A DNA stretch of 64,000 nucleotides from an uncultured Paracoccaceae bacterium. GTDB taxonomy: Bacteria; Pseudomonadota; Alphaproteobacteria; Rhodobacterales; Rhodobacteraceae. The translations under genes were made by a program, and so were the position numbers. Numbering within the stretch: the first letter of the stretch is position 1; every line of letters begins with the position of its first letter. Positions 9,625 to 16,451 of this stretch are shown here, in pieces. The notes under the pieces were generated by a model. That model was not told the DNA's origin, ran no database searches, and saw only the letters and a program-made list of their open reading frames with translations. The stretch is taken from positions 62,001-126,000 of the forward strand of contig CANKVU010000002.1 in NCBI GenBank assembly GCA_947487205.1, read 5' to 3'.

Positions 9625-10653
9625 TTACTGGGCGCTTTCGCCCTCGGAGGCGCCACTTTCGGCGCTGTCGCCTTCCGAAGAGCCGCCGAGCAGACCGGCC
9701 TCCTCGAAGTAGCGCTCGGCGCCCGGGTGCAGCGGCGCCGACAGGCCCTCGCTCGCCATCTGTTCCTTCTCGAGGTTCTCGAAGGCGGGGTGCAGGCCCT
9801 TGAACTGGTCGAAATTCTCGAACACCGCCTTGACCACCTGGTAGACGGTCTCCTCGTCCACCTCCTCGGAGGTGACGAGGGTGGCGCCGACGCCGAAGGT
9901 GGTCGTGTCCTCGTCGTTGCCGCGATACATGCCGCCCGGGATCGTCGCCTCGCGGTAATAGTCGTTTTCCGAGATCAGCGTCTGCGCGGCCTCGTTGTCG
10001 ACATCGACGAGCACCGAATCACAGGCCGTCGTCGCCTCCTGGATGGAGCCGGACGGGTGGCCGACCGAATAGACCATCGCGTCGATGTTGTTGTCGCAGA
10101 GCGCCTGGGACTGTTCGGCCGCCTGCAGCTCGGAGGCGAGCGTGAAGCTGTCCATGGTCCAGCCCATCTGGTCCATCAGCCGTTCCATAAGCACCCGCTG
10201 GCCGGAGCCCGGGTTGCCGACATTGACGCGCTTGCCTTCCAGGTCGGCGAAGGTCTCGATCCCCGCATCGGCGCGGGCGACGACCGTGAACGGCTCGGGG
10301 TGGATCGAGAAGACGGCGCGCAGGCCGTCATAGGCGCCCTGCTCCTCGAACTGCTCGGTGCCGTTCAATTTCTGGTACTGCACGTCGGACTGGGCGACGC
10401 CGAATTCCAGCTGCCCCTGTTCGATCGCGTTGACGTTGTAGACCGACCCGCCGGTGGATTCGACGGAGCAGCGGATGCCGTGATCGGAGCGGCCGCGATT
10501 GACGAGCCGGCAGATCGCCCCGCCGGTGGGATAATAGACACCGGTCACGCCGCCGGTGCCGATGGTGATGAACGTTTCTTCCTGCGCCATGGCGCCCGAT
10601 GCGCCGACCGCTGCGGCAAGAGCCAGGAGCGAGACGGTGATGGGTCTTTTCAT
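9625..10653 (-). CDS. TAXI family TRAP transporter solute-binding protein
   Basis: [55 protein letters not shown]...; TAXI signature. Immediately upstream of the permease on the same strand. Confidence 0.95.
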
Positions 10654-10924
10654 GGATATGATCTCCCTGTGAGACGTGGGCGGCAACGCCCAACCCGCAC
10701 AGGAGGGCCCGACCCGGCCCCAAAGGTCAAGCGGCCTCTGCCAGATCGATCCCCCGGCGGGGTTGCGGCGCGGGCGCTCGGGGCGTCCGCCGGGTTGCCG
10801 GATCGTCCACCCGCCGCGCCCGACCCTGCGCCCGGCCGCGCGCCCCCGTCGCCCCCGCATGGAGGTGACGCGCGCGTGCCGGTCGGCGCCCCGGGGGGGC
10901 GCAATCTGGGAAAGGACGCGCGAC

Positions 10925-13327
10925 ATGAAGGTGCCCGAAACCGTTCGAAACCTCCTCCGCTCGGCGGCGCCGACGCTGCTGTCGGCCCTGGCGCTGCCGC
11001 CGCCGCTGAACGGCATCGCGGCGACCGTCGCCGCCCGGGCGCTCGGCGGGACGGAGGCGGACGGGGCCGGGCGCCCGGTTTCCGCGGAGGAGGCGATCCG
11101 GCTGATCCGCCAGCGCGCCGGCGACCCCGAGATCCTGGCCCGCCTGCGCGCCGCCGAGACCGACCTGCAACGCTACGAGGCCGAGGCCGGCATCCGCTTC
11201 GAGGAACTGGCCGTAGAGGACCGCAAGCGGGCGAGCGAGCTGCAGACGGGGGGCCGGATCTCGGAGGTGGCCTACCGGCACGGGATGCGGATCGTGTGGA
11301 TCGCCATGGGCTCGATCCTGCTCATCATCCTGGCCGCGCTGTGGGTGGCGACGGCCGGCGTGCCCGAGGCCGACGCGGAATACATGGTCGCGGCCTTCGG
11401 CCTGATCGGCACGGCGGTGGGCTTCATCAACGGGATCGCCGGTTCGGTCGTGACCTTCTATTACGGGTCGAGCCAGGGCTCGAAGGACAAGACCGACGCG
11501 ATGGCGGATTCGATCCGCCGGTTCGGCGACGAGATCGAGCGGTCCTCGCGCCGCGACCGCGCCGCCGCCGATCGCGCCGAGACCGCGCGCGCCCGGGCCG
11601 AGGCCGCCCGTCCGCCCGCGCCGCCCGCCGCTCCGACCGCCCCGGCCGAGGCGGCCGAGGCGGAGGCCCCCGACCTGTCCCCGGCCGAGGCCTATCCCCC
11701 GCGCGAGGCGCCGGCGAGCCTGTCGCTGGTGTCCGAGATGCTGCCCGACCTGTCGCGGCCGCACCGGCATTTCGCCACCTCGGCGGAATGGCGGATGAGC
11801 GCGGCGGGGATCTCCGTCGACGGGGCGCCGGCGGCGCGCACGCCGGGCAAGCCGCGCAGCGTCGAGCGGATCTGGGAGCGCTACGGCGCGGATTGCGGCG
11901 ACGCCGCGGTGCGGTTCGGGGTCCCGGTGGAGTTGATCGTGGCGACCATCGCCACCGAGAGCGGCGGCGACCCGGAGGCGCGGCGCGCCGAGCCGCGCCT
12001 GAAGACCGAGAGCGTCGGGCTGATGCAGACGCTGGTGACGACCGCGCGCGAGGCGCTCGGCCAGCACGGGCTGACGGGGGACGACCTGCTCGATCCCGCG
12101 ACCTCGATCGCGGCGGGCACCGCCTATATCGCCCAGCAGCGCAAGAGCACCCGGTTCGACCCGCCGCTGGTCGCGGCGGCCTACAACGCGGGATCGCTGC
12201 GGCGCGACCCGGCGCCGCAGAACCGCTGGAACCTCGTCTGCTATCCGAGCGGGACGGGCGCGCATATCGACCGCTTCGTGGCCTGGTTCGGGGACGCGAT
12301 GGCGGTCGCGGGCCCGGCGGATTGGAGCGGCGGCGGCCGGGTGCCGAGCTTCGCCGCGGCCTTCGCGGGCGCGGCGCCGGACGAGGCACCGGGCCGGAGC
12401 GCGGCCGCGCCGGAGGAGGGAGCGGCGGCCTCCGCCACGATCCTGGTGGAGCAGATCACCCGGTCGATGTCGCTGACCGAGATCGCCGGCAATCTGGGCC
12501 TGGCGCAGGAGATGCAGGCGCGGCTGAGCGCGTTCGGCTATCTCGACCCGCCGCCCGACGGACGGTTCGGCCCCATCTCCACCTGGGCGTTGCAGGCCTT
12601 CTGCGCCCACCGCGCGATCGAGATCGGCGACGCGGTCACCCCCGACATGGCCCGCGCGCTGGCCGACCCCGCCAACGCCCTGCCGCGGATCGCCCCCTGC
12701 GAGACGCATCCCTGGATCGAGAAGGTGATCGCCGCCATGCGGGAGCGCGGCCACTGGATCTGCGGCGTGCCCGAATGCCGCAACATCGTCTACCTCGAAG
12801 GGGCCAATCCCGACGGGACGGTGAACGCGGACCGCCCCGACGTGTTCAACGACCTGCGGGTGGTGTTCTGGACCGATGCCGCGGGCGCCACCCAGGTCCG
12901 CGCCTGGGAGGCCACGACCGAGCCCGGCAAGCATTTCACCGATACGCCGCTGAACCCCCTGGGCGCGGCCCGCATCCGGTTCGGCCAGTACAAGGCCTGG
13001 CGCGTGGGCACCCACCGGGCGGGGTCCGACGGCGCGCACGAGGCGCTGGTCCAAGTGTCGGACGTGAGCGTGCACCGCGACCTCGACCGCGATCACGCCC
13101 GCGTCGGCGACCGGGTGGTCACGGGGCTCTTCGGGATCAACCAGCACTGGGGCTACGACGCGCCGCGCGACAATATCGGGCGCACCAGCGCGGGGTGCCT
13201 GGTGGGCCGCACGACGGCGGGGCACCGGGAGTTCATGGCCGAGGTGAAGGCCGATCCCCGCTACCGCGCGAATGCCGATTACCGCTTTGTCACCACGATC
13301 CTGCCGGCCCGCGAGGTGCTGGGCTGA
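10925..13327 (+). CDS. Multidomain fusion: holin-like N-terminus, SLT lytic transglycosylase, PG-binding domain, endolysin-like C-terminal domain
   Basis: 800 aa. N-term [26 protein letters not shown]...[25 protein letters not shown] resembles small phage holins. [18 protein letters not shown]...ESVGLMQTL...AAAYNAGSL is [29 protein letters not shown] is PG-binding. C-term contains [38 protein letters not shown]. Confidence 0.8.
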
Positions 13328-13367: not shown

Positions 13368-14501
<1,134 letters not shown>

Positions 14502-14590
14502 GATGTCCTCCCTATCATTTCTCGCATCTGGCACGATGTTGGCGCTCCCCGCCACCGGGAAAAACCGCCCGGCGGCGGGGCGCCCCCGCG

Positions 14591-15727
14591 TCACTCGCCC
14601 CCGGTCGACCCGGCGCCCGAGATCTGCGCGGGCAGGGCGCCGGCGCGCTGCTTGTCCATCATGAATCCGGCGAAGGTGGATTCGGCCACCTGCTGCCAGA
14701 GGAAATGCTCGGCCTGGAAGGCCATCATGCTGTCGTAGATCGGGCCCCAATCGGGATCGCTCTCGCGCAGTTCGCCATAGAGTTCGAGCGCGGCGTCGTA
14801 GGCGGCGTCGAGGATCTCGTCGGGGAAGGCGCGCAGCTCCGCGCCGCCCTCCACGAGGGTCCGCAGCGCGGCGGGGTTCTTGTAGTCGTATTCGGCCATC
14901 ATGCCGGAATTGGCGGCCCGGCAGGCCGTCTCCAGCAGGCTGCGATAGCTGTCGGGCAGCCCCTCCCATTCGGCGCGGGAGACGAAGACGTTGAGCACGG
15001 TGCTGGGCTCCCACCAGCCGGGATAATAGTAGTACGGCGCCACGTCGGCGAAGCCCAGCCGCTCGTCGTCGTAGGGCCCGATCCATTCCACCGCGTCGAT
15101 GGTCCCGCGTTCGAGCGCGGCATAGATGTCGCCGCCGGCGATCTGCTGGGGCACGACGCCCAGCCGCTCGACGATGCGGCCCGCGAGTCCCGCGATCCGC
15201 ATCTTGAGGCCGTCGAGGTCCGACAGGCCGGTGATCTCGTTGCGGAACCAGCCGCCCATCGTGGTGCCGACATTGCCGGCGGGCAGGTAATGCAGGTCGC
15301 GGGCGTGGAAGAACTCGTTCAGGATCTCCATCCCGCCGCCGTAATAGAGCCAGGCGTTCATGCCGCGATAGTTCAGCCCGAACGGGATCACGGCGCCGAG
15401 CGCCCAGGTCGGTGACTTGCCGACGTAATAATAGGTGCCGGTGTGGCACATCTGCACGGTGCCGTTCTGGACCGCGTCGGCGGCCTGCAGGCCGGGCACG
15501 ATCTCGCCGGCGGCGAAGACCTGGATGTCGAAGGCGCCGTCGGTCGCCTCGCGGACATAGCGGGCCACGTCCGCGGCGCCGCCATAGATCGTTTCGAGGG
15601 ATTGCGGAAAGGACGAGGTGCAGCGCCATTGGACCTGGGGGCGCGACTGCGCCAGCGCCGGGGCGGCGAGCGCGGCGGACCCGGCGGCGCCGAGCGCGGA
15701 GGTGCGGAGGAACTGGCGGCGTTTCAT
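14591..15727 (-). CDS. TRAP transporter substrate-binding protein, DctP family (paralog 2)
   Basis: MKRRQFLRTSALGAAGSAALAAPALAQSRPQVQWRCTSSFPQSLETIYGGAADVARY...; near full-length colinear paralog of the neighbouring gene. Confidence 0.94.
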   Translation of the reverse strand: MKRRQFLRTSALGAAGSAALAAPALAQSRPQVQWRCTSSFPQSLETIYGGAADVARYVREATDGAFDIQVFAAGEIVPGLQAADAVQNGTVQMCHTGTYYYVGKSPTWALGAVIPFGLNYRGMNAWLYYGGGMEILNEFFHARDLHYLPAGNVGTTMGGWFRNEITGLSDLDGLKMRIAGLAGRIVERLGVVPQQIAGGDIYAALERGTIDAVEWIGPYDDERLGFADVAPYYYYPGWWEPSTVLNVFVSRAEWEGLPDSYRSLLETACRAANSGMMAEYDYKNPAALRTLVEGGAELRAFPDEILDAAYDAALELYGELRESDPDWGPIYDSMMAFQAEHFLWQQVAESTFAGFMMDKQRAGALPAQISGAGSTGGE

Positions 15728-15890
15728 GGGCGTCTCCTGCCGTGATGCGTCGGGCGCCATGGTAGGCGCCGTCCCCGCATCGGGGGAAGCCTGCGGAATT
15801 GCCTTTTGCGCCGGTGGCGGCGTATCACGGGGGGGGAACGCCCGGCAGAGGAGCTTCGATGAGTGTCGTGACCCAATTTCCGTGCAATCC

Positions 15891-16451
15891 ATGAGCGCGC
15901 TTCTGGGACTGGCCCGCGCCATCGACCGGGTGAACGGCATCGTCGGGCGCTGGCTTGCCTGGCTAATCCTCGCCGCGGTTCTCGTCAGCGCCGGCAATGC
16001 CGTGATCCGCAAGAGCTTCAACATCTCGTCGAATGCGTGGCTGGAGCTGCAATGGTATCTCTTCGGCGCGGTGTTCATGCTCTGCGCCGCCTGGACGCTG
16101 CGCGAGGACGAGCATGTGCGCGTCGACGTGCTGAGCGGCTGGCTCAGCCCGCGCGGCCGGGTCTGGATCGACCTCGTCTGCCACATCCTGTTCCTGATGC
16201 CCTTCGCAGTGCTGATGATCTGGCTGTCCTGGCCGTTCTTCGTCTCCTCCTACCTGTCGGGCGAGCAATCGAGCAATGCGGGCGGCCTGATCCGCTGGCC
16301 GGCCAAGCTGTGGGTGCTGGTCGGCTTCGTCATGCTCGCGGCGCAGGGCCTGTCCGAGATCGTCAAGCGGGCCGCGATGCTGTCGGGCACCCTGCCGATC
16401 CCCGACGCGGCCGCGCACGAGGACGAGCGCGTCCGGGAGCATGCCGGATGA
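15891..16451 (+). CDS. TRAP transporter small permease, DctQ family
   Basis: MSALLGLARAIDRVNGIVGRWLAWLILAAVLVSAGNAVIRKSFN..SNAWLELQWYLFGAVFMLCAAWTLREDEHVRVDVL. Confidence 0.95.
   Translation: MSALLGLARAIDRVNGIVGRWLAWLILAAVLVSAGNAVIRKSFNISSNAWLELQWYLFGAVFMLCAAWTLREDEHVRVDVLSGWLSPRGRVWIDLVCHILFLMPFAVLMIWLSWPFFVSSYLSGEQSSNAGGLIRWPAKLWVLVGFVMLAAQGLSEIVKRAAMLSGTLPIPDAAAHEDERVREHAG

Follow-up and report, generated by a model that had tools for sequence, protein, structure and literature searches.

The window, a 64,000-nucleotide stretch of a contig from an uncultured Paracoccaceae bacterium, contains on its plus strand a complete gene (10925..13327) for a protein of 800 residues. The open reading frame is intact, with an ATG at 10925 and a stop codon at 13325-13327. 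An alternative, longer frame from a GTG at 10676 is also present; the ATG was selected as the start because all six orthologues begin there in the alignment. The encoded protein consists of a predicted holin-like membrane domain, a linker, an SLT lytic transglycosylase domain, a peptidoglycan (PG)-binding domain and a lysin-like C-terminal domain. The intergenic region before the gene (10657..10924) is shared with a divergent gene for a TAXI-type TRAP binding protein. No CtrA-like TTAA-N7-TTAA site (up to one mismatch) was found in the window, no sigma-70-type match was found near the gene, and LexA-like sites matched at chance level. The ten neighbouring frames, between 5.1 and 20.8 kb of the window, are metabolic or belong to TRAP transport (an aminotransferase, Usp, TRAP transporter parts, an epimerase and a glycerate-kinase-type MOFRL protein); no phage genes were seen among them, in agreement with the initial annotation. 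On the minus strand (13368-16186), a pair of neighbouring genes for DctP-type TRAP binding proteins apparently arose by tandem duplication. PADLOC returned no defence-system match, and a defence system was rejected on that basis.

Six full-length orthologues were identified, including the window protein itself. The congener copy (L027) is 72% identical to the window protein and lies in the same gene neighbourhood; the others come from Rhizobium cauense (L028), the Rhizobium jaguaris plasmid pRCCGE525a (L021), Paracoccus laeviglucosivorans (L030) and a Chromatiaceae MAG (L029). Identity to the window protein ranges from 51 to 72%, and the domain order is constant and the motifs invariant across these Alpha- and Gammaproteobacteria. 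Comparison with the congener gave a dN/dS of 0.38 for the whole gene and 0.32-0.35 for the N-terminal, SLT and C-terminal parts, with higher values in the linkers and PG-binding region and the highest (0.54) in the linker at residues 201-305. The gene is under purifying selection, and the six copies at this level of identity, together with the dN/dS, establish that it is real. Its occurrence is rare and patchy: it is present in 2 of the 15 genomes of the window's genus, and a scan across 85,488 species recovered it from four genomes. The R. jaguaris record (L021:9785-12124) is annotated with a GTG start at 9998; conservation places the start at 9785, with which the holin-like domain regains its N-terminal part. 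In Rhizobium sp. T1473 (L022:5789-8791), a related gene with the PG-binding and C-terminal domains is broken by an apparent transposase gene.

The full-length copies lie outside recognised prophages: no prophage genes were identified around the orthologues and no full-length copy was present among the best viral matches, so that the proviso of the initial annotation, that orthologues might always be encoded inside prophages, can be set aside. Given these results and the metabolic and transport neighbours in the window, a prophage lysis cassette was rejected. No conserved partner gene common to all orthologues was found. Both Rhizobium records have, ahead of the gene, a frame for a 1031-residue membrane protein that matches SBP_bac_3 weakly (L021:6589-9684 and L028:4814-7894, 84% identical); it was dismissed as a general partner because it occurs only in these two among the records searched. 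Three large proteins without a Pfam match are encoded near the Paracoccus copy (L030:17-7826), and a transmembrane (TM) protein and a DUF4231/SLATT-like protein are encoded downstream of it (L030 10352-11751).

Residues 1-200 (10925..11524, plus strand) constitute the membrane domain, which is matched in PHROGs by phrog_1544 over residues 6-194 (E 1.9e-9). Two strong hydrophobic stretches are evident from Kyte-Doolittle analysis at about residues 118-151 and 153-179. The first TM segment (about residues 122-145, 11288..11359, plus strand) was delimited by Kyte-Doolittle values above 1.4 and a model helix at residues 112-144, and the second (about residues 153-181, 11381..11467, plus strand) by the same threshold and a model helix at residues 148-204 that is of low confidence at its end. 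The domain is closed by a charged tail, GSSQGSKDK, of which GSSQGSKxK is invariant in the six orthologues; small size, TM segments and a charged C-terminal tail are features of the holin class. An IMG/VR scan recovered stand-alone homologues on 80 viral contigs, each a whole protein of 164-219 residues that aligns to residues 5-199 of the window protein. An endolysin neighbour is another feature of the holin class. Of the 79 testable viral loci, 78 have an endolysin homologue on the same strand, no more than 1.2 kb downstream; the window gene carries its enzyme as part of the same chain. These endolysins belong to three mutually unrelated families, GH108 (44 loci), GH19 (24) and M15 (10), as confirmed by Pfam on representatives. 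The viral contigs are redundant, forming 18 clusters at 95% identity and 6 at 80%, all but one with an endolysin.

The initial annotation likened this N-terminus, with two TM segments, to small phage holins. Both segments and the phage lysis-cassette origin are borne out, but none of the Pfam holin families matched the protein. PF11351 (GTA_holin_3TM) gave no match up to E 1, one viral homologue matched it at E 0.13, below the curated cut-off, and a profile comparison (hhalign) of the domain with alphaproteobacterial GTA holins was not significant (probability 15%, 11 columns). On these profile results, membership of the PF11351 family was rejected; no non-holin family took the N-terminus. The AlphaFold model of the domain is of moderate quality (pLDDT 78.9, pTM 0.50), and its sole significant viral structural match in Foldseek is a 203-residue phage protein annotated as 'Holin of 3TMs, for gene-transfer release' (E 9e-6, probability 1.0, TM 0.53, rmsd 9.8). 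Based on gene context and this one structural match, rather than on a Pfam holin match, the domain, a phage lysis-cassette membrane protein, is probably holin-like. Additional small membrane genes are often present in the phage cassettes, and these, instead of the phrog_1544 proteins, could be the real holins.

The membrane domain is followed by a poorly conserved linker (residues 201-305, 11525..11839, plus strand) that is charged at first and then Pro/Ala-rich. The SLT domain (residues 327-426, 11903..12202, plus strand; PF01464, E 1.2e-17) contains the catalytic ES (Glu345-Ser346), GLMQ (from Gly365) and YNAG (residues 420-423) motifs of its class, all of which are invariant in the six orthologues. 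It is followed, in the order originally annotated, by a PG_binding_1 domain (residues 528-559, 12506..12601, plus strand; PF01471, E 5e-6).

The lysin-like C-terminal domain (residues 596-800, 12710..13324, plus strand) was defined from PHROGs, the predicted model and Foldseek. Its last 180 or so residues match phrog_3000 (E 7e-33) and phrog_33083, an 'endolysin' family (E 6e-16), which upholds the resemblance to parts of phage cell-wall hydrolases noted at the outset. His697, His705, Arg718-Asp719, His741 and Cys758 are invariant in the six full-length proteins. The model is confident (pLDDT 95.7); no PDB structure matched it at E ≤ 0.001, and five phage proteins matched it in Foldseek, one of them named 'Lysin' (E 3e-13). 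The invariant H741-x16-C758 pattern resembles an L,D-transpeptidase motif; a YkuD-type reading was rejected, as neither a Pfam match nor a PDB fold match at this threshold was obtained. Viral copies are fused to Phage_lysozyme (L271, L285) or GH108 (L270) domains, or have a lysozyme (L282) or an SLT-containing protein (L283) as a neighbour. Phages also carry the domain alone, and several viral copies are followed, by eye, by small hydrophobic ORFs. In bacterial relatives, it is fused to a phage lysozyme (L034, L045) or GH25 (L100) domain, with PG_binding_1. These fusions, neighbours and structural matches mark it as a lysin-type domain that is widespread, has a confidently predicted fold and lacks a solved relative.

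The lysis pair of the Rhodobacter capsulatus gene transfer agent (RcGTA) consists of the endolysin rcc00555 and the holin rcc00556. The distribution of the canonical GTA pair (PF11351 holin and GH108 endolysin) was examined in 15 genomes of the window's genus, all at least 98% complete. The pair is present in 13 genomes and absent from the window genome (G000) and one congener (G155), which are exactly the two genomes with the single-chain gene. Both keep GTA_TIM and a syntenic RcGTA-type head-tail cluster from terminase to orf15 (L255, L258), the genes of which were assigned from order, similarity and what we take to be the RcGTA organisation. In three relatives (L259-L261), the canonical pair lies downstream of argC and a conserved 152-residue gene. 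The two carriers are the closest pair among the genomes compared, and loss of the pair and presence of the gene are therefore probably one event. In the window lineage, the single-chain gene and not the canonical pair accompanies a GTA cluster. This does not hold for Paracoccus, where PF11351 was found in 81 of 81 genomes tested, including the carrier P. laeviglucosivorans; this refutes GTA replacement as a general rule. Two other family members (G004, G008) have neither PF11351 nor the single-chain gene. The window genome contains three GTA_TIM-bearing loci (L254, L255 and L256, on contigs C26, C8 and C28); one is the RcGTA-type cluster, another is prophage-like and has, judged by eye, an M15-type peptidase gene, and in the third a stop interrupts the GTA_TIM frame. 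Inspection by eye places a lysozyme-like gene and some small membrane ORFs among the tail genes of the congener's prophage-like cluster (L257:9470-10839); G067 has none there.

One reading of this distribution is that the single-chain protein took over from the GTA holin and GH108 endolysin in the window lineage, which is conceivable but on balance doubtful. It would account for the match between missing pair and carriers that retain the GTA cluster, and GTA lysis modules do vary between lineages: Caulobacter crescentus uses LypABC for GTA lysis, with no holin-endolysin (PMC13236601), and R. capsulatus needs rcc00555 for GTA release (PMC3423380). Against it, the pattern probably reflects a single event, the Paracoccus carrier has both the gene and PF11351, two family members lack the holin without having the gene, no CtrA-like site lies upstream, and the M15-type peptidase of the prophage-like cluster in the window genome could serve instead. 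We therefore treat GTA release as a hypothesis and not as a result. The fuller scenario, that one Rhodobacteraceae lineage lost the two-gene GTA cassette and passed release to one polypeptide with holin, transglycosylase, wall-binding and lysin domains, as a third way beside holin-endolysin and LypABC, is rather doubtful. Alternatively, the N-terminal domain might only be the anchor of a periplasmic transglycosylase that acts in growth or in inserting secretion channels, with no lysis involved. One-chain tethering and ordinary chromosomal contexts suit a housekeeping anchored enzyme; nevertheless, this role is unlikely, since the anchor corresponds to an entire phage lysis-cassette protein, invariant tail included, and is no generic signal anchor, and since the gene is far rarer and patchier than housekeeping transglycosylases.

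A role in releasing non-phage cargo, such as contractile injection systems, was considered because a cluster of Pvc16_N, two sheath genes and a tube gene (L028:12245-18325) starts about 1.9 kb downstream of the gene in R. cauense, and because genes of this kind also occur in the Chromatiaceae MAG, on a different contig. Neither sheath nor tube genes were found in the window genome, in its congener, in Paracoccus or on the R. jaguaris plasmid, the last of which keeps the same 1031-residue upstream gene without the cluster. With these genes absent from four of the six genomes or records, this was rejected as a general role, and the reading as a whole is improbable. That the gene is a chance fusion or a decaying phage remnant without function would fit its rare, patchy occurrence and its mosaic of phage-type parts; it is hardly credible in view of six full-length copies with constant domain order, invariant motifs and a dN/dS of 0.38.

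Our preferred explanation, which we consider somewhat probable, is a domesticated single-chain lysis protein in which a predicted holin-like domain and a tethered peptidoglycan hydrolase bring about self-lysis for cargo release. Of the domesticated lysis or GTA-release factor suggested by the initial annotation, the lysis part is favoured by the fusion of a phage lysis-cassette protein to lytic domains, and the GTA part retains one suggestive observation in the genus but does not extend to Paracoccus. The architecture is well supported and the assignment as a lysis protein moderately so; the link to loss of the GTA cassette is a single event, but a clean one. Holin activity, topology, enzyme activity and role are as we infer them here. 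The two-TM domain would oligomerise in the inner membrane and disrupt it, and the tethered hydrolase (SLT, PG-binding and lysin-like domains) would reach the wall through the lesion and cut it, so that permeabilisation and wall cleavage would come from a single translation product. Residues before the first TM segment and after the second are basic, and the loop between them (VPEADAE) is acidic; by the positive-inside rule, the enzyme is therefore predicted to start in the cytoplasm, like a free endolysin. It would hang from the membrane hairpin by a linker of about 100 residues. If both termini lie in the cytoplasm, such an enzyme could get to the wall only by way of a large lesion or by flipping; either a holin-type lesion or C-terminal flipping, as proposed for a Clostridium fusion (PMC9527704), could bring it there. 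The protein would probably be used for controlled self-lysis of a few cells that releases a large cargo, for which the GTA particle is one candidate in the window species.

Lysis is canonically split between a holin, which acts as the timer, and an endolysin, the enzyme, on separate chains. The stand-alone phrog_1544 proteins of Vibrio phages and IMG/VR contigs are whole-length homologues of residues 1-200, some of them ending in YYFGSSAGSKEK, but in none of the 80 best viral loci were they part of a fusion. The phrog_3000 and phrog_33083 proteins of phages and cyanobacteria share the C-terminal domain, often with PG_binding_1, but lack the holin-like N-terminus and have, in the place of SLT, a GH24, GH25 or GH108 enzyme or none. 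The RcGTA pair, like the window gene, is a chromosomal, non-prophage, phage-derived lysis function of Rhodobacteraceae that combines a membrane protein with a wall hydrolase; it differs in being two genes, with GH108 and PF11351 domains that were not detected in the window protein, and the pair is absent from the window genome. This mutual exclusion within one genus bears on how GTA release modules swap. LypABC of C. crescentus demonstrates alphaproteobacterial GTA lysis by a module other than holin-endolysin, but is a CARD-NLR-like immune-type system unrelated to the window protein (PMC13236601). A natural holin-endolysin fusion is already known from one published case, WP_163247266.1 of the TpeE family in Clostridium sporogenes (PMC9527704), of which the window protein would be a Gram-negative version. 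In both, one chain holds a holin or holin-like domain whose C-terminal end continues into a wall hydrolase. The Clostridium fusion differs in its Gram-positive host, its single short TM helix with an amphipathic helix and its other holin family; the series of SLT, PG-binding and phrog_3000 domains belongs to the window protein and is not described for that fusion (PMC9527704). The one-chain version bears on the question raised by the Clostridium protein, namely whether a tethered hydrolase suffices and how the enzyme crosses the membrane.
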